Positions 36,550-46,189 of a DNA stretch of 46,189 nt are shown here, in pieces (position 1 is the stretch's first letter; each line of letters opens with the position of its first letter). A model generated the notes under the pieces. That model saw only the letters and a list, made by a program, of their open reading frames with translations. It ran no database searches and was not told the DNA's origin. Source of the DNA: Clostridia bacterium (GTDB lineage: Bacteria > Bacillota > DSM-521 > Neomoorellales > Neomoorellaceae); NCBI GenBank assembly GCA_030445865.1, contig JASUSV010000010.1, positions 1 to 46,189 of the forward strand, given 5' to 3'. A program made the translations under genes and the position numbers.

Positions 36550-37575
36550 ATGTCCTGGTCCCAGCTGGAAAAAACTCTTAAAGGCGGTCGCTTCGCTCCT
36601 GTCTACCTTTTTTACGGGCAGAATGACTACCTTATGGAGCGGGCGGTTAAAACCCTGCGCTCCAGGTTATTGGGTGGCGAATTTACATCCCTGGATTACC
36701 AGGAGCTTGATGGCCGGGAAGTTGGCGCGGAGGAGATATGCGAATTTGCTTCTACTATGCCTATGATGGCTGAAGTTCGCCTGGTAGTAGTGAAAGAGCC
36801 CCCTTTTTTTCAAAAAAACATCAAAGAATCCGAAAGAAGGGCCCTGCTCGCCTATTTAGAAGCGCCCGCGCCGACCGCCTGCTTGGTTTTTGTTGTCAGC
36901 GGCCAAGTGAATAAACAGGAAAAACTGATCCAGGCCATCGCCCGGGCGGGAGAGGTTATCGAGTTTTCCCGATTGAAAGAAGAGGAGTTTAACGCCATCC
37001 TTAAAAAGGAAGCGGCCAGATATGGCCGCAAAATTAATCCCCAGGCTTTAATTTTATTGGCCCAGGCTTGCAACTTTGACCTGCGCCTGGCCCTTCAGGA
37101 ACTGGAAAAACTCGATCTTTACCTGGAACCCGGCCAAGAAATAACGGTCCAGGTGGTTAGTAAAAATATTCCTGGTGTCCTGGCGGAAAATGCCATCTTT
37201 AGGCTGGTTGACGCCCTTGGTTCCAGGAAGCCGGCAGCGGCTGTTAAATATTTACGGGAATTACTATTAAACAACGAAGCGCCTTTAAGTATCCTGGGGA
37301 TGATCGGGCGCCAGATGCGCCTCATTTTCTTTAGCAAAATACTGGTGGAACAGGGTTATAGCGGTGACAACCTGGCTGCAACTTTAGGAGTCCCTGCCTT
37401 TGTGGCCCGCAAAATTGTCCACCAGGGGACTAGCTTTTCTTTAGGCGAACTCAGGCAAATTTTTGATTTTTTATTAACAACGGACCTGGCTCTGAAGAGC
37501 GGCGCCGGCGATCCCGGTCTTTTATTAGAGCAGGCTATCTGGCATATTTGCTCTAAAATTAAGGGAGCAGGTTGA
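36550..37575 (+). CDS. holA: DNA polymerase III delta subunit
   Basis: This 341-residue clamp-loader delta subunit has APVYLFYGQNDYLMERAV at the N-terminus, a central AAA+-like region without a P-loop, and the C-terminal collar domain with EAPLSILGMIGRQMRLIF. It opens the beta clamp during loading. ATG at 36550 behind GGTGGGAGG. comEC-holA-rpsT is a conserved Firmicutes order; here the tandem dehydratase pair is inserted between comEC and holA. Confidence 0.95.
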   Translation: MSWSQLEKTLKGGRFAPVYLFYGQNDYLMERAVKTLRSRLLGGEFTSLDYQELDGREVGAEEICEFASTMPMMAEVRLVVVKEPPFFQKNIKESERRALLAYLEAPAPTACLVFVVSGQVNKQEKLIQAIARAGEVIEFSRLKEEEFNAILKKEAARYGRKINPQALILLAQACNFDLRLALQELEKLDLYLEPGQEITVQVVSKNIPGVLAENAIFRLVDALGSRKPAAAVKYLRELLLNNEAPLSILGMIGRQMRLIFFSKILVEQGYSGDNLAATLGVPAFVARKIVHQGTSFSLGELRQIFDFLLTTDLALKSGAGDPGLLLEQAIWHICSKIKGAG

Positions 37576-37636: not shown

Positions 37637-37912
37637 CTACTGGCCGGACGCGATCTCTTTATTAAAGAGCCGTTGCAGGCGGGATTTTTTCCTGGCGGCG
37701 GTATTGGGATGTAGGACGCCTTTGGTTACGGCCTTGTCCAGTATCCTAATGGCGTTACGCAGGGAAAGTTGTTTCTGTTCCAGCGTACCTTCCATGAGGG
37801 CGGTGCGGAATTTTTTAATGGCCGTCTTGACCTGGGATTTAACGGCTTTATTTCTTAAAGTACGCTTGGCCGTGATTTTTACCCTTTTGGCTGCTGATTT
37901 GATATTCGGCAC
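37637..37912 (-). CDS. rpsT: 30S ribosomal protein S20
   Basis: This 91-residue basic protein begins MPNIKSAAKRVKITAKRTLRNK, the standard S20 start, and ends RKKSRLQRLFNKE. The GTG at 37912 is chosen because it gives the normal family N-terminus, and GGAGG lies upstream; an in-frame GTG at 37924 is inside that site. S20 binds 16S rRNA early in 30S assembly. It is convergent with holA. Confidence 0.96.
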   Translation of the reverse strand: MPNIKSAAKRVKITAKRTLRNKAVKSQVKTAIKKFRTALMEGTLEQKQLSLRNAIRILDKAVTKGVLHPNTAARKKSRLQRLFNKEIASGQ

Positions 37913-37937
37913 TTTATCTTCCACCTCCGACTAAACC

Positions 37938-38071: not shown

Positions 38072-38518
38072 TTAACCCGGAAATGGTTTCGCTTCTGGAA
38101 CAACCTTAAGCTTCATAGCACATAGAGCCTCCCACAACCGCATGTCCCAGCAGGCTGCTACGATGCGGCTTTTTACCTGGGTCTTCAGGGTTACTGCGGC
38201 AGCAAGATGTATGGCGTCGAAACCTCTTAGACGATGTTTTTCAGCCAGTTCTCCTGCAAGCCAAACGAGGGAATCCGATACTTCTAGTGCAAGATACTTT
38301 AGCCAATCGTTCTGAAGGGCTACCACAACCTCGTGATAATCCTTTTCTTTCAGCAGACCTTCGCGGAAACCCCGAGCCAGGGCGGCCCGCGCTTCTGGGT
38401 AAGCCACCTTACTGGTAGCTACCACTGAAGCTGCGTCCACTAATTTACGCACAATCTCCGAGCCCTCTTCGTACACATACAGCTTCACTAGAGCGCTGGT
38501 ATCCAGGTAGCAGATCAT
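38072..38518 (-). CDS. VapC-like PIN-domain toxin
   Basis: This 148-residue PIN ribonuclease has the acidic active-site residues Asp6 (CYLDTSALVKLY), Glu42 (YPEARAA), Asp101 (GFDAIHLAAA) and Asp125 (CWDMRLWE). VapC toxins cut tRNA or rRNA when released from their antitoxin. The start overlaps the antitoxin stop by 4 bp (ATGA), a usual toxin-antitoxin arrangement. It is the first gene after the conserved comEC-holA-rpsT block, at the edge of the accessory region. Confidence 0.9.
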   Translation of the reverse strand: MICYLDTSALVKLYVYEEGSEIVRKLVDAASVVATSKVAYPEARAALARGFREGLLKEKDYHEVVVALQNDWLKYLALEVSDSLVWLAGELAEKHRLRGFDAIHLAAAVTLKTQVKSRIVAACWDMRLWEALCAMKLKVVPEAKPFPG

Positions 38519-38781
38519 CGGCGGTCCTCCACAACTAACGCTGCGATCGAGGAAGTGCCGGGAATTGTCGGCGGCGTGGCCGCCCCGCGTGGCTTGCCCC
38601 CCTGCCAGGAAGCCACTCCCTCTTCTACCAGGGTTAAAACGGGAAGCTGTTCCTTTTCCTGAACCGGCACCAGCCTGGCAACAGGAACGTTACGTTCGGT
38701 GATAACGAGTATTTCACCCTGCTTAACCCGTCTAAGGTATTTGCTGAAGTGGTTTTTGACCTCTCTGATACCCGCTTCCAT
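38515..38781 (-). CDS. Phd/YefM-type antitoxin
   Basis: This 88-residue protein begins MEAGIREVKNHFSKYLRRVKQGEILVITERNVPVARLVP, the Phd/YefM DNA-binding fold, followed by a flexible tail that would cover the toxin. ATG 38781 follows GGAGGTGAT; longer upstream starts would overlap the promoter. It should bind the direct and inverted repeats just upstream and repress the pair. Confidence 0.88.
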   Translation of the reverse strand: MEAGIREVKNHFSKYLRRVKQGEILVITERNVPVARLVPVQEKEQLPVLTLVEEGVASWQGGKPRGAATPPTIPGTSSIAALVVEDRR

Positions 38782-38794
38782 AAAATCACCTCCA

Positions 38795-38834
38795 GTAGCC
38801 ACATTATAGCACACATGAAGCCACATTTTCAAAT
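38795..38834 (-). promoter_or_regulatory. Toxin-antitoxin promoter with repeat operator
   Basis: On the minus strand TTGAAA (38830-38825) and a perfect TATAAT (38806-38801) are 18 bp apart. A 9-bp direct repeat, AATGTGGCT, occurs at 38825-38817 and 38803-38795, offset by 22 bp (two helical turns) and flanking the spacer. ACATTT-TC-AAATGT (38821-38834) is an inverted repeat over the -35. These are good candidates for antitoxin-binding sites. Confidence 0.7.
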
Positions 38835-38913: not shown

Positions 38914-38942
38914 TTGACATAAGCCACGCGATCCTGTATGCT
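38914..38942 (+). promoter_or_regulatory. Promoter of the helicase-methyltransferase unit
   Basis: A perfect TTGACA (38914-38919) and TATGCT (38937-38942) are 17 bp apart, 44 bp before the GTG start. It diverges from the toxin-antitoxin promoter about 80 bp away. Confidence 0.7.
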
Positions 38943-38985: not shown

Positions 38986-41900
38986 GTGGAGTATATCCCT
39001 CAGGATTATCCGGACCGGATCAGGCGGCTGCGGGCCAAATTGGGCTTGAGCCAGAAGCGCCTCGCGGAACTTCTGGGCGTCTCCTTTGCGTCCGTCAACC
39101 GGTGGGAGAACGGGCAGACACGCCCCAACCGCCTGGCGTGGGGTCAGATCTTACGCCTTGAAATAGATGGTCTCGAGGGGTTACTTAAACCGCCGCTCAC
39201 CGGCAACAGCAGTCAGTTAGCCGGCGCACTATTTGCGGCCGAAGACAAAGCGGCCTACCGGCTGTCCGACGAGCCGCCGGAGCCGCATGAGCCGGACAAG
39301 GTCGATTTCACCGCCCCGCCGGAGATCGTCCGCCTGGCCGTCGAAGCCGAGCGTTTAACTTACGGCCACCTTTTCAGCCCGGCCTTTGCCACCGAAACCT
39401 CACTGATTGACCCGTTGCCACACCAGCGCATCGCCGTGTATGACCATATGCTTCCCCAGCCTAGGCTGCGGTTTTTGCTGGCCGATGATGCCGGTGCCGG
39501 CAAGACCATTATGACCGGTCTCTATATCCGCGAGATGCTCACCCGGCGGCTGATCCGGCGTGTCCTAATCGTACCGCCTGCAGGCCTGGTTGGGAACTGG
39601 CAAAGGGAAATGCGAACACTCTTCAGCCTTCCGTTTAAAATAGTGACCGGCGCGGATGCGCGCGTTGGCAACCCCTTCACCGGGCCGGAAAGCGACCTGG
39701 TTATCGTCAGCGTGGACACGCTCTGTAGCACGCAAACCTTTGCCCGTCTCCGCGAGTCCGGCGTGGAGCCCTACGATCTGGTTGTTTTCGATGAGGCGCA
39801 TAAGCTGGCGGCCGACCGCAATCCCGACTTCACCGTCCGGAAGACCGACCGCTACCGCCTGGCCGAAGCGATCGCGGGAGCCTCGGACGACCCCGACTGG
39901 GTGCTACCCTGGCGGTGCCACCACCTGCTCCTCCTCACCGCCACGCCCCATATGGGCAAAGACTTCCCCTACTTCTGCCTGTGGCGGCTGCTGGAACCGG
40001 AGATACTCTCCACTATAGACGCCTTCAACGCCTATCCGGCGGAGGCGCGGCGGCGCCATTTCCTCCGGCGAACCAAAGAAGAAATGGTGCGGTTTGACGG
40101 CACGCCGATTTATCCGAAAAGGGAATCCCGCACGTTGAGCTATGACCTGGGACCTGCCGAGCAGCGGCTCTACGACGAGACTACCAGTTACATCCGGACC
40201 TATTATAATCGCGCCCGGATTCTCAACCGTTCGGCCGCCCGCCTGGCCATGAGCATCTTCCAGCGCCGGCTGGCGAGTTCCACGTGGGCTCTGTTGCGGT
40301 CTCTCGAGCGGCGGCTGGAAAAATTGGACGGGCTGATCGAGGATATTAGGAGCGGCCGGCTTACGGAGGAACAGCTTACCGCCTACCAGCGGAAGGTAGA
40401 CAAAACGGTCGATATTTTTGACCGGATGACCGCCGACGAAGAGGAGCCGCAGGAGGGCCACGAGCAAAACGAGGTGGTTGAGGACCAGGCCCTAAAAGGG
40501 GTGGTCGCCACTTCCCTATCCGAGCTTCAAGCTGAGCGGATGCAGGTTGAGGACCTGCTTGGCCTGGCGCGGCGGGTGTTTGCGTCCGGCGAGGAGGCGA
40601 AGTTCGAAAAACTGCGCGAGGTGGTGCAGGACGAGCGTTTCAAGGACGAAAAGATCCTGATTTTCACCGAGCACCGGGATACTCTCGATTTCCTGATCCG
40701 GCGCCTGGAAGGCCTGGGCTATACGGGAAGGGTTGCCGCTATCCACGGCGGCATGGACTACCAGGAACGCGAGGCGCAGGTGGCCTTCTTCAAGCGGCCG
40801 GCTAGGGAAGGCGGCGCGAACCTGATGGTCGCCACCGATGCTGCCGGGGAGGGGATTAACCTCCAGTTCTGCTGGTTGATGGTGAATTACGACATTCCCT
40901 GGAACCCGGCGCGACTTGAGCAGCGGATGGGACGCGTCCACCGCTACAAGCAGATGCACGACCCGGTGCTGATCTTCAACCTGGTGGCGGGGAAAACCCG
41001 GGAGGGCAAGGTGCTTAAAACGCTGCTCGAGAAATTAGAGCAGATCCGTCGCGAACTCGGGTCGGATAAGGTTTTCGACGTTATCGGAATGCAATTCGAA
41101 GGAGTTTCGCTAAAAGAGTTAATTCTGCAGGCGGTGGTGGACGAGCAGAGCGATGAGGCCGTCCGGCAGGTTGAGGGTCGCCTTACGCCGGAACAGGTCA
41201 AGGCGCGGCTGGCGCAGCGGGAAAAGCTTCTCGGTGCCGGCGGGGATATTGCCCTTCAGTTACCTGAACAACGGGCCAAATTGGAGCGCGAAACGTTTCG
41301 GCGGCTGCTGCCGGGATATGTCCGCCGCTTTATCGAGAAATCGGCACCGCTTTTAGATATCGGCATTGACGGCGATCTGGAGGGCTATTTCTCCTTCAGG
41401 CCCCTCCGACCGGGGGCGCTTGACCCCTTATGGCCCGTCCTGGAAAGTTACGACCCCGCAAGGTGGGAGCGGTTGACCGTTTATAAGCCGCCCGAGGGCG
41501 AGCAGGCGGTCTTCCTGCACCCTGGTGAACCGCTCTTTGACCGTTACTGTTCGCTGGTGCGCGGCCGGTTCGCGGCTCCGGCGCGAAAGGGCGGCGTTTT
41601 TGTTGATCCTTATGCGGAGCGCCCCTACCTTTTCCACGTGGTACTGGTCAGGATTATGCGGCGGGCTGATCCGGCGCTGCCCGAGGTTTTTGGCCGGGAA
41701 GAACTGGTGGAGTCGCGTTTGGTGGCGTTGCGGCAGGACGAGACCGGGAAAATCGAGGAGTGCGCGGTGGAGCACCTTATGTTATTGCGCGGCGCGCCAA
41801 CAATCCCCGCGGCGGCTATCCCTCTTGTTTCCACGATCGCCGCTGCCTGCGAGCAGGCGAAAAACTTTGTTGTGGAGCGGATTGCCGAACCACTTGCCGC

Positions 41901-42606
41901 GGCCCGCAGGCAGGCACTGCTCAATACCCTGGCCGGGCGGGAGGAGTTTATCCTCCGGGGTTACGCTTACCAGGAAGCAGAACTCGCCTTGAAACGGACC
42001 CGCCTTTCCGAGCGGGCCAACGCGGGCGATGCGGCGGCCCAGGGTGAACTGACGAAGGTTAAGAAGCAGCAGCGGGAACTCGCCGACCGGATCGAGCGAT
42101 CTCTGGCGGTGCTGCGGCGGGAGCCGGAACTGATCGTTCCGGGCGAGGTCCACTTTTTGGCGCACGCTTTAGTGGTGCCCTCTTATGATCCGGAAGACAG
42201 GGCGCGTTACGACCGGGAGATCGAACGGATCGCCGTCCGGGTGGCCTGGGGCTACGAGGAGAGCCGCGGCTGTACCGTCCGGGATGTTTCCGCCCCGGAA
42301 CTTGCCATACGTGCCGGCCTGGAGGCCTACCCCGGTTTCGATCTTTTGTCGCGCCACCCCGGTGGCGAGGAGCGCGCCATCGAGGTCAAGGGTCGGGCCG
42401 GCATCGGCGACATAGAACTTTCGGAGAACGAATGGGCCAGGGCCTGCAACCTGCGAGACCGCTACTGGCTCTATGTCGTCTACGACTGCGCCGGCGCCCA
42501 CCCGCGCCTTTTGCGCATCCAGGACCCTTTCGGGAAACTGCTGGCGCGGCGTAAAGGCGGCGTGGTGATAGGGGAACAGGAGGTCTTCGCAGCAGCGGAA
42601 GAATAG
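38986..42606 (+). CDS. XRE-SNF2 helicase-DUF3883 defence protein (DrmD-like?)
   Basis: A 1206-residue protein. Residues ~8-60 are an XRE-type HTH (LSQKRLAELLGVSFASVNRW). A SNF2/RapA-like SF2 motor follows: Walker A DDAGAGKT (167-174), DEAH (269-272), LTATPHMGKD, and the second RecA lobe with IFTEHRDTLDFLIRRL, TDAAGEGINLQF and QRMGRVHR (646-653). The C-terminus carries a DUF3883-type domain with Asp1119 in GFDLLS and IEVKG (Glu1133, Lys1135), a D...ExK layout. GTG 38986 follows AATGGAGGAC. SNF2-DUF3883 helicases occur in DISARM class 1 (DrmD) and related defence loci. The HTH suggests sequence-specific DNA binding or autoregulation. The partner is the DUF1156 methyltransferase. Confidence 0.85.
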   Translation: MEYIPQDYPDRIRRLRAKLGLSQKRLAELLGVSFASVNRWENGQTRPNRLAWGQILRLEIDGLEGLLKPPLTGNSSQLAGALFAAEDKAAYRLSDEPPEPHEPDKVDFTAPPEIVRLAVEAERLTYGHLFSPAFATETSLIDPLPHQRIAVYDHMLPQPRLRFLLADDAGAGKTIMTGLYIREMLTRRLIRRVLIVPPAGLVGNWQREMRTLFSLPFKIVTGADARVGNPFTGPESDLVIVSVDTLCSTQTFARLRESGVEPYDLVVFDEAHKLAADRNPDFTVRKTDRYRLAEAIAGASDDPDWVLPWRCHHLLLLTATPHMGKDFPYFCLWRLLEPEILSTIDAFNAYPAEARRRHFLRRTKEEMVRFDGTPIYPKRESRTLSYDLGPAEQRLYDETTSYIRTYYNRARILNRSAARLAMSIFQRRLASSTWALLRSLERRLEKLDGLIEDIRSGRLTEEQLTAYQRKVDKTVDIFDRMTADEEEPQEGHEQNEVVEDQALKGVVATSLSELQAERMQVEDLLGLARRVFASGEEAKFEKLREVVQDERFKDEKILIFTEHRDTLDFLIRRLEGLGYTGRVAAIHGGMDYQEREAQVAFFKRPAREGGANLMVATDAAGEGINLQFCWLMVNYDIPWNPARLEQRMGRVHRYKQMHDPVLIFNLVAGKTREGKVLKTLLEKLEQIRRELGSDKVFDVIGMQFEGVSLKELILQAVVDEQSDEAVRQVEGRLTPEQVKARLAQREKLLGAGGDIALQLPEQRAKLERETFRRLLPGYVRRFIEKSAPLLDIGIDGDLEGYFSFRPLRPGALDPLWPVLESYDPARWERLTVYKPPEGEQAVFLHPGEPLFDRYCSLVRGRFAAPARKGGVFVDPYAERPYLFHVVLVRIMRRADPALPEVFGREELVESRLVALRQDETGKIEECAVEHLMLLRGAPTIPAAAIPLVSTIAAACEQAKNFVVERIAEPLAAARRQALLNTLAGREEFILRGYAYQEAELALKRTRLSERANAGDAAAQGELTKVKKQQRELADRIERSLAVLRREPELIVPGEVHFLAHALVVPSYDPEDRARYDREIERIAVRVAWGYEESRGCTVRDVSAPELAIRAGLEAYPGFDLLSRHPGGEERAIEVKGRAGIGDIELSENEWARACNLRDRYWLYVVYDCAGAHPRLLRIQDPFGKLLARRKGGVVIGEQEVFAAAEE

Positions 42607-42614
42607 ATTTGTCT

Positions 42615-42667
42615 GGAGGGATGTGACGTGGCTGAAGGGAATGAAAAGCGAGGATTCGAAATCCTCG
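42615..42667 (+). pseudogene. tRNA-Ser(CGA)-like 5' fragment
   Basis: The sequence GGAGGGATG, then GTGGCTGAAGGGA, then a stem-loop CGAGGA-TTCGAAA-TCCTCG resembles the acceptor 5' strand, D-arm and anticodon arm of a serine tRNA (anticodon CGA in a 7-nt loop at 42655-42661). The D-stem 5' side is altered, about 8 extra bases precede the anticodon stem, and no T-arm or 3' acceptor strand follows, so it would be a truncated pseudo-tRNA. An alternative reading is a 20-codon ORF (GTG 42628 to TAG 42690) with GGAGGG upstream. It lies just after the helicase stop. Confidence 0.4.
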
Positions 42668-42781
42668 GGCACACGAACACAGATACTTAGATGAGCCATT
42701 TGTTGCCTTAGAAATGCTAGTATGGGCTAATCATTTAATACGGATAGTGAAAATGTCCAAGCGAACACGGAGGAAGTAATC

Positions 42782-45700
42782 GTGCGTAATAATAATGATT
42801 ATCCCCGTCTTATCGAGCACGCCTTCCCGCTGAAGCAGGCTTCGCTAGATTCGGTGCACGAGAAGAACGTGCGGCACGGGCACATCTCCACGTTGCACAT
42901 CTGGCCGGCGCGGCGGCCACTGGCGGCCTGCCGGGCGGCGCTGATCGCCACGCTGCTACCCGACCCCGGCACGCCGGAGGAGCGCCGGCGTATTCTTGAG
43001 AAGCTGGCGGGCCGGGTGGTGCGAAAGGTGGAGAAGAAGAAGCTGCCCGGTGGCAGAGTCATCGAGCGCATCCGGGAAGAAACAAAAGGCGGCATCCTGC
43101 ACTGGGGCCGGGAGAACGGCCCGGCGCTGGAATGGTTCCGCGAAGAGATCAAAAAGGCTTACGGCGGCCGGGCGCCCAGAGTGCTGGACCCCTTCGCCGG
43201 CGGCGGGTCAATACTGCTGGAGGCGATGCGGCTCGGCTGCGAAGTGACCGCCATCGATATCAACCCGGTAGCCTGGTTCATCCTCAAGTGCACCCTGGAA
43301 TACCCGCAGAAGCTGGCCGGGCAGAAAAGGCCGCTGCCGGAGTTTATTTTGGCCGACGAGGACTTTATGGAAGCCTTTTACAAGGTCCATCCGGGAATTG
43401 TTGGCCGGGGGCGGCCGCAGAAGGGACAACTTGATTTGGAACAACTTGATTTGGAAAGTTTACTTAGTCAGCCAGAAACCGGAGAGCTGCCGGTGCCGGA
43501 AGCGGATCTCTCCTGGCACGTGCGCGCCTGGGGGAGATGGGTGCTGACGCGGGCCCGCCAGGAATTAGCGCGTTACTACCCGGCCTACGCTGACTTCGAG
43601 CCGCTAAAACCGGACGGGCTTCCGTTTGAGCTGCGCGAACCCAGGCTGGTGCCGCTTAAAGAGGACGGTTCGCTCGACCTTGAAGCCTTGAATGCGGAAT
43701 TTACGGAGGAATATCTCCGGGACCCGCGCAACCCCCGGTGGGTGGCTAAGCCCACGGTGGCCTACCTCTGGGCGCGGACGGTGCAGTGTAAGAACTGCCG
43801 GGCGACGGTGCCGCTTCTGAAAACCCGCTGGCTCTGCAAGAAGGACAAGAAGCGCGTGGTGCTGACGATGGAGCCGAACCCGGATAAAACCGGCGTGGTC
43901 TTCGGCATCCAGAATGATGTGCCCGTGGCCGGCGGCAACGCGGCGCAAAGGCGTGAGCACGACCGGAAGGTCGGGGCCGGTACCATGTCCCGCTCCGGGG
44001 CGACCTGCCCCTGCTGCGGGACGATTATGACGATGGAGGATATACGCCTCGAAGGACGGGCGGGCCGGTTAGGGGCGGTGATGACCGCCGTCGTGGTGGA
44101 CGGGCCGAACGGTAAGGAGTACCGCCTGCCGACGGCGGAGGAGGTCCGCCTGGCGCAGGAAGCGGAGAAGGAACTCGACCGGGTTTTTGCGGAGATTCCG
44201 TTCGGGCTGCCGGAGGAGCCGACACCCAAAGGTGGAAGCGGCGCAAGCAGGGCCTTTTCCGTTGACGGCTACGGTTTCGACAAATGGTTCAAGCTCTTCA
44301 CTCCCCGCCAGCTCCTGGCCCTGGGCACCTTCGTAAAACACACCCGCGCCGCCCGCGACGCCATGCGGGAGGCGGGCTACCCGCCCGAGTGGGTGGAAGC
44401 GGTGGGGGCGTATTTGGCGCAGGCGTTAGATTTTGTGGCGAACCGTAATAGTGTGGTGTGTTCATGGACACTTACGAGAGAAACAACCCGCGGCACCTTT
44501 GCGAGATTTGCTCTGCCAATTGTGTGGGATTTTGCCGAAGCAAACCCGTCTGAAGAAGCTTCCGGAGGTTATCCAGGGGCGATTGAGTGGGTATGTCGTT
44601 ATATAGACCATGTATTGGTTTTTGGACAAGAAAGTCAATTTACGAGGGCCTTCCAGAAGACAGCTACAGAAGAATTGGGTAGTTTCTTAGACGTTATAGT
44701 CACCGACCCCCCTTACTACGACGCCATCCCCTACTCCGACCTGATGGACTTTTTCTATGTCTGGCTGCGGCGGACGCTGTACGGTCTTTCCCCAGAGATA
44801 GACGAGGTCTTCCGGGAACCGCTGTCTCCGAAGTGGGACCATGAAAAGAACGACGGGGAGTTGATCGACGACGCCAGCCGCTTCGGCGGCGACAGGCAGA
44901 AATCCAAGGCGGCCTACGAGGAGGGGATGTTCCGCGCCTTCCAGGCCTGCTACCGGGCGCTGAAGCCCGAAGGGCGGATGGTGATCGTCTTCGCCCACAA
45001 GCACCCGGACGCCTGGGAGACCCTGGTTTCGGCCATCATCCGGGCCGGGTTTGTGGTGGTCGCGAGCTGGCCCATTCAGACAGAGATGGGCAACCGCACC
45101 CGCGCCCTTTCTTCGGCGGCGCTTGCCTCCTCCGTATGGCTCGTCTGCAAAAAGCGACCGGAAACCGCCCGGCCCGGCTGGGACAACCGGGTGCTGGAGG
45201 AGATGCGGGATAAAATCTATGCCCGGCTGCGGGAGTTCTGGGACGCCGGCATCCGGGGGCCGGACTTCGTCTGGGCGGCCACCGGCCCGGCGCTGGAGGC
45301 TTACAGCAAACATCCGGTCGTCAAGAAGGCGAACGAGCCTGGGCAGGTCATGACTGTTTCCGAGTTCCTGCGGGCCGTCCGTCGGCTGGTGGTGGACTTC
45401 GTTGTCGGCCGGGTGCTCTCCCATAACGGCGGCGCGGAAGGCGCGAGCGGTTTAGACGACGTAACTACTTACTACCTTTTGCACCGCCACGACTTCGGCT
45501 TTGAGGACGTTCCGGCCGGAGCCTGCATCCTCTACGCCGTCTCCTGCGGCCTCTCGGACCGCGAACTCGTCGACCAGTACGACCTTCTGGTCCGCACCGG
45601 CGGTCAGGAGCAAGACGAAGAGGAGGAAGAAGCCGGGATCGAGGCGGGGGACGAAATCAAGGAAGGCACCGGCAGCAAGGTCCGGCTCAAACCCTGGCAG

Positions 45701-45988
45701 CAGCGCAGGCGCAAGACGCTGGGCCTGGACGCCGAGGGTCGTCCTGCGCCTCTCATCGACCAAGTGCACCGCCTCATGCACCTGTGGAAAGCAGGCGACG
45801 TGGTGAAGGTGGACGAATACCTAGACGCCCGCGGTCTTCGCCGCCACCGCCTCTTCCACCAGCTCCTCCAGGCCTTAATCGAGCTCGCCCCGCCCGGCAG
45901 TGACGAGCGCTCCCTCCTGGAGAGCATCAGTAATCACCTCGCCGCGCGGGGCACCGCACCGGGAGAACAACTGGAACTTTTCGTTTAA
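42782..45988 (+). CDS. DUF1156-type DNA methyltransferase (N6-adenine / N4-cytosine class)
   Basis: This 1068-residue protein opens with a DUF1156 domain (about residues 8-70: PRLIEHAFPLKQASLDSVHE, LHIWPARRPLAACRAAL). SAM motif I is DPFAGGGS (136-143), with AIDINPVAWFILK after it. A zinc ribbon has Cys336, Cys339, Cys352 and a CPCC pair at 409-412. The catalytic motif is DPPY (642-645). A large C-terminal region (about 800-1068) includes an acidic stretch. DPPY-type enzymes methylate exocyclic amino groups of A or C. COG1743-like proteins of this kind are typical of defence islands. GTG 42782 follows ACGGAGGAAG. It lies 175 bp after the helicase gene. Confidence 0.9.
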   Translation: MRNNNDYPRLIEHAFPLKQASLDSVHEKNVRHGHISTLHIWPARRPLAACRAALIATLLPDPGTPEERRRILEKLAGRVVRKVEKKKLPGGRVIERIREETKGGILHWGRENGPALEWFREEIKKAYGGRAPRVLDPFAGGGSILLEAMRLGCEVTAIDINPVAWFILKCTLEYPQKLAGQKRPLPEFILADEDFMEAFYKVHPGIVGRGRPQKGQLDLEQLDLESLLSQPETGELPVPEADLSWHVRAWGRWVLTRARQELARYYPAYADFEPLKPDGLPFELREPRLVPLKEDGSLDLEALNAEFTEEYLRDPRNPRWVAKPTVAYLWARTVQCKNCRATVPLLKTRWLCKKDKKRVVLTMEPNPDKTGVVFGIQNDVPVAGGNAAQRREHDRKVGAGTMSRSGATCPCCGTIMTMEDIRLEGRAGRLGAVMTAVVVDGPNGKEYRLPTAEEVRLAQEAEKELDRVFAEIPFGLPEEPTPKGGSGASRAFSVDGYGFDKWFKLFTPRQLLALGTFVKHTRAARDAMREAGYPPEWVEAVGAYLAQALDFVANRNSVVCSWTLTRETTRGTFARFALPIVWDFAEANPSEEASGGYPGAIEWVCRYIDHVLVFGQESQFTRAFQKTATEELGSFLDVIVTDPPYYDAIPYSDLMDFFYVWLRRTLYGLSPEIDEVFREPLSPKWDHEKNDGELIDDASRFGGDRQKSKAAYEEGMFRAFQACYRALKPEGRMVIVFAHKHPDAWETLVSAIIRAGFVVVASWPIQTEMGNRTRALSSAALASSVWLVCKKRPETARPGWDNRVLEEMRDKIYARLREFWDAGIRGPDFVWAATGPALEAYSKHPVVKKANEPGQVMTVSEFLRAVRRLVVDFVVGRVLSHNGGAEGASGLDDVTTYYLLHRHDFGFEDVPAGACILYAVSCGLSDRELVDQYDLLVRTGGQEQDEEEEEAGIEAGDEIKEGTGSKVRLKPWQQRRRKTLGLDAEGRPAPLIDQVHRLMHLWKAGDVVKVDEYLDARGLRRHRLFHQLLQALIELAPPGSDERSLLESISNHLAARGTAPGEQLELFV
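43426..43455 (+). repeat. 15-bp exact tandem duplication inside the methyltransferase gene
   Basis: ACAACTTGATTTGGA occurs twice back to back (43426-43440 and 43441-43455), in frame, so the protein contains QLDLEQLDLE near residue 216. The exactness at DNA level suggests a recent in-frame slippage event or a variable spot. Confidence 0.9.
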
Positions 45989-46077
45989 AGACGGTTGCCG
46001 GTATAATCGAAAAGGGCAGGAGTTAGAAACAGTTCTTTGCGTGGTAACGACTAATTAACAAATCTGTTGCAAAATAG

Positions 46078-46109
46078 CACCATTTGGTAGAAACTGATAC
46101 CAGGTGGTG
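46078..46109. repeat. Imperfect inverted repeat upstream of the IS607-like gene
   Basis: CACCATTTGGTA (46078-46089) and TACCAGGTGGTG (46098-46109) form a 12-bp stem with two G-T pairs and an 8-nt loop, ending 5 bp before the recombinase GTG and including its GGTGG ribosome binding site. It could be an operator or end-proximal recombinase site of the element, or an RNA hairpin that limits recombinase translation. Confidence 0.6.
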
Positions 46110-46114
46110 TTATC

Positions 46115-46189
46115 GTGAAACTCTATAACATCAGAGAATTCGCTGAAAAGCTTGGAGTGAGCATATCCACACTGCGCGCCTGGGACCGG
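46115..46189 (+). CDS. tnpA: IS607-like serine recombinase TnpA (N-terminal part; runs off the window)
   Basis: The 25 codons available begin MKLYNIREFAEKLGVS and end LRAWDR, a MerR-type winged-helix start characteristic of IS607-family transposases, in which this DNA-binding domain precedes a serine-resolvase catalytic domain. GTG at 46115 follows AGGTGGTG. A TnpB/IscB-type partner would be expected downstream but is outside the window. A plain MerR-family regulator cannot be excluded from 25 residues. Confidence 0.65.
   Translation, partial: MKLYNIREFAEKLGVSISTLRAWDR

Follow-up and report, generated by a model that had tools for sequence, protein, structure and literature searches.

Gene content of the locus

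The window, that is, the whole stretch of 46,189 nucleotides that was analysed, is an entire contig (C20) of a spore-forming Bacillota genome (G000; 2.08 Mb in 90 contigs). Close to its right end lie two intact open reading frames of 1206 and 1068 aa, both on the plus strand and spaced by 175 bp, which we name hmaA and hmaB after the models that match their products best (Table 1). The domains claimed for the two proteins in an earlier reading made from the sequence alone were all recovered, namely HTH_3, SNF2, Helicase_C and a DUF3883-type NOV_C domain in the first, and DUF1156, N6_N4_Mtase, four cysteines and a DPPY motif in the second. The adjoining toxin–antitoxin pair of that reading is found as a Phd/PIN pair upstream of hmaA on the minus strand, and its transposase gene as the last 75 bases of the contig (46115-46189), which hold the first 25 codons of a serine recombinase/MerR-like tnpA of an IS607-type element, the family being named from sequence. 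The proposed promoter is likewise present as a sigma-70-like site before hmaA, but four such sites occur in the region versus 1.9 expected, an approximately twofold excess that makes for weak promoter evidence.

Table 1. Features of the Hma locus and its left flank; positions refer to the window unless another sequence is named.
Feature	Position	Strand	Basis or remark
holA (DNA polymerase III delta subunit)	36550..37575	+	named from sequence; chromosomal anchor left of island
rpsT (ribosomal protein S20)	37637..37924	-	chromosomal anchor
PIN-domain (VapC-like) toxin	38072..38518	-	PF01850 3e-11
Phd/YefM antitoxin	38515..38832	-	PF02604 2e-10, TIGR01552 9e-11, both above cut-off
Sigma-70-like promoter TTGACA-17-TATGCT	38914..38942	+	consensus match only, 10/12
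hmaA, SNF2 helicase with C-terminal PD-(D/E)XK nuclease	38986..42606	+	PADLOC HmaA 9.4e-170, residues 107-1169
XRE-type HTH at HmaA N-terminus, residues 12-48	39019..39129	+	PF01381 4e-11
PD-(D/E)XK (NOV_C/DUF3883) nuclease domain of HmaA, residues 1116-1176	42331..42513	+	PF13020 3e-15
hmaB, DUF1156 N6-adenine methyltransferase	42782..45988	+	PADLOC HmaB 2.3e-116
DUF1156 domain, HmaB residues 14-65	42821..42976	+	PF06634 1e-17
Methyltransferase motif I DPFAGGG, HmaB 136-142	43187..43207	+	sequence motif
Zinc-ribbon-like CxxC...CxxC, HmaB C336, C339, C409, C412	43787..44017	+	all four invariant, 9 aligned sequences
Catalytic motif IV DPPY, HmaB 642-645	44705..44716	+	invariant, 9 aligned sequences
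IS607-type element, left part	46022..46189	+	left end near 46022-46027, tnpA start 46115 (MKLYNIREFAEKLGVSISTLRAWDR), truncated by contig end
hmaC, DUF499 AAA+ ATPase, outside window	L005:14656-17970 (C47)	-	PADLOC HmaC 1.2e-75

To the left, the chromosomal genes holA and rpsT, which are neighbours in relatives too, adjoin the island, and since spoIIP lies within about 100 bp of rpsT in relatives, the island starts beyond rpsT. To the right, the window stops together with the contig at 46189, and the absence of genes on that side can therefore not be judged from the window.

The helicase-nuclease HmaA and the methyltransferase HmaB

The two proteins are close to those of two other genomes, G016 and G020, with 86-88% identity for HmaA and 84-87% for HmaB. 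The XRE-type HTH ahead of the helicase is found in 28 of 29 aligned HmaA sequences, and the possibility that it represents a novel fusion was accordingly rejected. At the opposite end of the protein, residues D1119, E1133 and K1135 of the NOV_C domain are invariant in all 29 aligned HmaA proteins, which places the seemingly missing nuclease within the helicase protein. The sequence-only reading saw no separate nuclease, but the locus needs none, and a nuclease is not lacking from it. From these residues HmaA is predicted to carry an active PD-(D/E)XK nuclease at its C-terminus, as does the helicase in 79% of the Type-1 DUF499-centred BREX-related (BR) systems (PMC12839542). For HmaB, a PDB search with the profile of the protein gave no match.

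The probable third gene across the IS607-type element

Only one DUF499 gene was found in the genome, and it lies on another contig, C47. Its product, HmaC, is intact with 1104 aa, retains the Walker A (GGGKTH) and Walker B (LILMDE) motifs, and is 90% identical, in a gapless alignment, to the G020 orthologue that shares a locus with hmaA and hmaB. Read in the reverse direction towards hmaC, C47 opens with the last 71 codons of tnpB, which encode its zinc-ribbon end; these are followed by some 440 bp from the 3′ region of the element, a gene for a 140-aa protein of the PADLOC defence-candidate family PDC-M50A (1.6e-44), and then hmaC. In the 176 bp spacer between the latter two genes (L005:17971-18146), 47 residues match the C-terminus of a HEC-01B-like protein of G020 (VEQVLRQVKKPRSSAIYKLLAQRVSFERCIDPAFLKFKMVMQKWFGR), which shows that a HEC-01B-like module was once present at this locus and has since been lost.

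The middle of the IS607-type element is absent from the assembly, the remainder resuming at the end of C47. The tnpB 3′ end of the element occurs in two copies, on C47 (L005:18603-19257) and at the end of contig C69 (L035:7288-7941), that share 96% identity over 655 bp before they diverge, and the point of divergence sets the right end of the element independently. With up to 3 mismatches allowed, the tnpA start was found nowhere else in the genome. The non-coding 3′ part of about 440 bp folds better than shuffled sequences (z -3.9) and gave no match in an Rfam search; it may represent the tnpB guide RNA region.

Two lines of evidence indicate which contig continues the window. First, contig C65 of genome G048 contains an uninterrupted junction in which the last 83 hmaB codons (83% identity) are followed by the M50A gene (93%), and this sequence can be aligned to C20 as far as 46022 and to C47 starting at the base where the element ends. 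Second, the order holA-rpsT-spoIIP-gpr-lepA is contiguous in four genomes (G001, G006, G011 and G012), and in G000 this group is divided, with holA and rpsT bordering the island on its left side on C20, and spoIIP, gpr and lepA following immediately to the right of hmaC on C47. Junction and gene order together argue strongly that C20 and C47 are the two flanks of one IS607-interrupted locus, and that HmaC accordingly appears to share a locus with hmaA and hmaB, as in a Type-1 BR system; as no read or contig crosses the element, the join is strongly inferred and has not been observed directly. As C69 also carries a tnpB 3′ end, it was considered as the continuation of C20 but rejected, because its flank is without an Hma gene and because C47 is favoured both by the junction in G048 and by the order of rpsT and spoIIP. 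There is a formal chance that recombination between the element copies on C47 and C69, with their 96% identical tnpB 3′ ends, has rearranged the flanks. The order of the assembled locus would be the Phd/PIN pair on the opposite strand, hmaA, hmaB, the IS607-type element, PDC-M50A, the HEC-01B-like scar and hmaC.

Two further loci encountered on these contigs may be mentioned in their own right. The G048 locus (L029:7779-8682) is an orphan remnant, in which the 83 hmaB codons run into a response-regulator-like fragment; an intact PDC-M50A gene comes next, hmaC is lacking, and the remnant adjoins a gene for a 932-aa type III restriction-like helicase. In G000, C69 encodes a 1636-aa DruE-like helicase (C69:6960-11870, L126:2961-7871; PADLOC DruE 2e-192) beside an ORF of 958 aa that matches no PADLOC model, possibly a Druantia-like locus elsewhere in the genome.

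Hma loci in related genomes

In two genomes with close orthologues the three genes are found together on one contig, as hmaA-hmaB-M50A-(AAA ATPase)-(HEC-01B-like)-hmaC in G020 and as hmaA-(DUF5343, HEPN)-hmaB-hmaC in G016. A wider survey covered genome contigs with an HmaB alignment (79 loci), the sample being the best-scoring 80 and consisting mostly of MAGs, and its counts therefore apply to this clade and not to all DUF1156 methylases. HmaA, HmaB and HmaC are all encoded in 38 of the 41 loci of this best-scoring sample that had enough flank (more than 6 kb left and more than 5 kb right of hmaB); of the other three, one has HmaA and a single HmaB-HmaC ORF and two are distant homologues without either partner. 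Where HmaB is close and the flank is sufficient, an HmaC match is present on the right in 32/32 loci (more than 5 kb; in one of them within the ORF of HmaB itself) and HmaA on the left in 34/34. The single ORF that matches both the HmaB and HmaC profiles (L064:9995-13423) is possibly a fusion or a deletion product.

The genes of these loci are often spaced apart. Within the clade survey, the hmaA-hmaB gap exceeds 600 bp in 27/32 loci and the hmaB-hmaC gap exceeds 400 bp in 15/32, inserts of 1-7 kb being normal between the latter two genes. This spacing fits the PDC families and the "Hma-embedded candidates" (HEC) that have been published (cited in PMC12988326).

Interpretation of the locus

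Very likely, the genes described here constitute a complete anti-phage locus of the Hma (Type-1 DUF499-centred BREX-related) kind, which sits between rpsT and spoIIP and carries an IS607 tnpA-tnpB element between hmaB and hmaC, at which the assembly is broken. The models for HmaA, HmaB and HmaC are the top PADLOC matches of the three proteins. That the locus looks like a pair of genes is due to the assembly, and it is an ordinary further example of the known Hma system. The sequence-only reading had offered both a larger locus that breaks off at the right edge and a compact stand-alone restriction-modification-like system; the former is borne out by hmaC on the other flank of the insertion, and the latter does not hold, given the intact hmaC on C47 and the partners present across the surveyed relatives. 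Its view that the usual defence partners are missing fails as well, as the DUF499 partner it did not see occurs in the same genome, beyond the window and within the locus, and the nuclease is fused to HmaA. The association of DUF1156 methylases with DUF499 ATPases, which it also named, was in turn the correct lead.

The sequence directly shows which genes are present, that their frames and catalytic motifs are intact, and that the element is inserted; restriction, a modification motif and hmaC expression behind the element are what we infer. Judging from the protein families, HmaB would methylate adenine at a specific motif of the host DNA, which it may recognize via its TRD/zinc-ribbon insert, and HmaC, a BrxC-like AAA+ ATPase, would assemble on or survey the DNA and signal the presence of unmodified foreign DNA, whereupon HmaA would translocate and cut the DNA with its fused PD-(D/E)XK domain. 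The XRE HTH of HmaA probably binds DNA, perhaps at the promoter of its own locus. The element and the approximately 2-3 kb that are added between hmaB and hmaC may lower the expression of hmaC, which leaves function in this strain uncertain.

It is conceivable, though rather unlikely, that the element has broken the locus, with hmaA and hmaB expressed from the 5′ promoter and hmaC silenced, so that a methylating but non-restricting remnant is left. The position of the element between hmaB and hmaC and the decay of the HEC-01-like module beside hmaC to a scar would agree with such a state, but all three frames are intact and align with close orthologues over their full length, and the inserts of 1-7 kb in relatives imply that transcription of hmaC must in many cases cross such inserts or be independent of them. 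A still more speculative proposal, to which we give little credence, is that the joints between hma genes are docking sites for swappable cargo, the hmaB-hmaC joint having taken up PDC-M50A, a HEC-01-like module of which a scar is left and, latest, an IS607 TnpB element whose 3′ RNA region is structured and which may be kept as cargo and not as a harmful insertion.

A stand-alone two-gene system of helicase-nuclease and methyltransferase that acts independently of DUF499 is very improbable: only hmaA and hmaB are seen inside the window, and in principle HmaC might not be needed for cutting by the nuclease domain of HmaA, but an intact hmaC lies on the far flank of the element, and HmaC is matched next to every close HmaB of the survey with sufficient downstream sequence. 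A partial class 1 DISARM locus (drmD-drmMI) with drmABC lost or never present can practically be dismissed, since the second-best match of HmaA to the DrmD model (6e-109) follows from both being RapA-like SNF2 helicases, a superfamily resemblance that reaches only 349 bits versus a cut-off of 610 for the DrmD equivalog (NF038317) and 143 versus 950 for NF038318, HmaB matches HmaB and not DrmMI best, the DUF1998/MZB genes are on other contigs (on C10, and on C69 at a distance from its end; the large one is DruE-like), and the join to C47 contradicts it.

Reading the locus as a complete but split Hma system removes a false lead, and suggests that helicase-methylase pairs at contig ends need to be checked against the remaining assembly before a new system is claimed. 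It also provides a clean example of one insertion element that breaks a defence locus and its assembly together, and of how the empty site of a relative and the chromosomal gene order can rejoin the parts. The scar of an embedded gene agrees with the published guilt-by-embedding view of Hma loci.

Comparison with known systems

Class 1 DISARM resembles the locus in having a RapA-like SNF2 helicase beside an adenine methylase. In contrast, drmA, drmB (DUF1998) and drmC (PLD) were not found in the ORFs examined around the locus, the DISARM models score below cut-off, and a DUF499 ATPase is present instead. In BREX type 3, BrxHII, BrxXI and BrxC form a homologous trio of helicase, methylase and AAA+ ATPase (PMC12839542), and HmaA also matches BrxH models; the locus differs in the DUF1156 N-terminus of its methylase and in the DUF499 ATPase that replaces DUF6079, and none of PglZ, BrxA, BrxB or BrxL was noticed beside it.

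DUF499 ATPases in an operon with an SNF2-DUF3883 fusion were noted earlier, with DUF3883 called a restriction-endonuclease domain (PMC3710099). Hma itself was introduced as an operon of three genes, for a helicase, a methylase and an ATPase, that is present in 26 phyla (Payne et al. 2021, PMC8565338), and redescribed as the Type-1 DUF499-centred BR system, in which the helicase usually has a C-terminal PD-(D/E)XK domain (PMC12839542). The locus shares with Type-1 BR systems the DUF499 ATPase, the DUF1156 N6-MTase and the SNF2 helicase with a C-terminal PD-(D/E)XK nuclease; a further likeness is that DUF3780 was not noticed here, albeit without a dedicated search. It may depart from their description in PMC12839542 in the N-terminal part of the helicase, given there as TUDOR: in G000 and most close relatives (28 of 29 sequences) an XRE HTH comes first, and a TUDOR might follow it. 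With respect to Hma as first described, the locus is peculiar in being split by the IS607-type element and in having PDC-M50A between hmaB and hmaC, and the DPPY motif of its HmaB indicates N6-adenine methylation, whereas PMC8565338 calls HmaB an m5C methyltransferase. It nevertheless follows the order hmaA-hmaB-hmaC, and all three proteins match the Hma models best.
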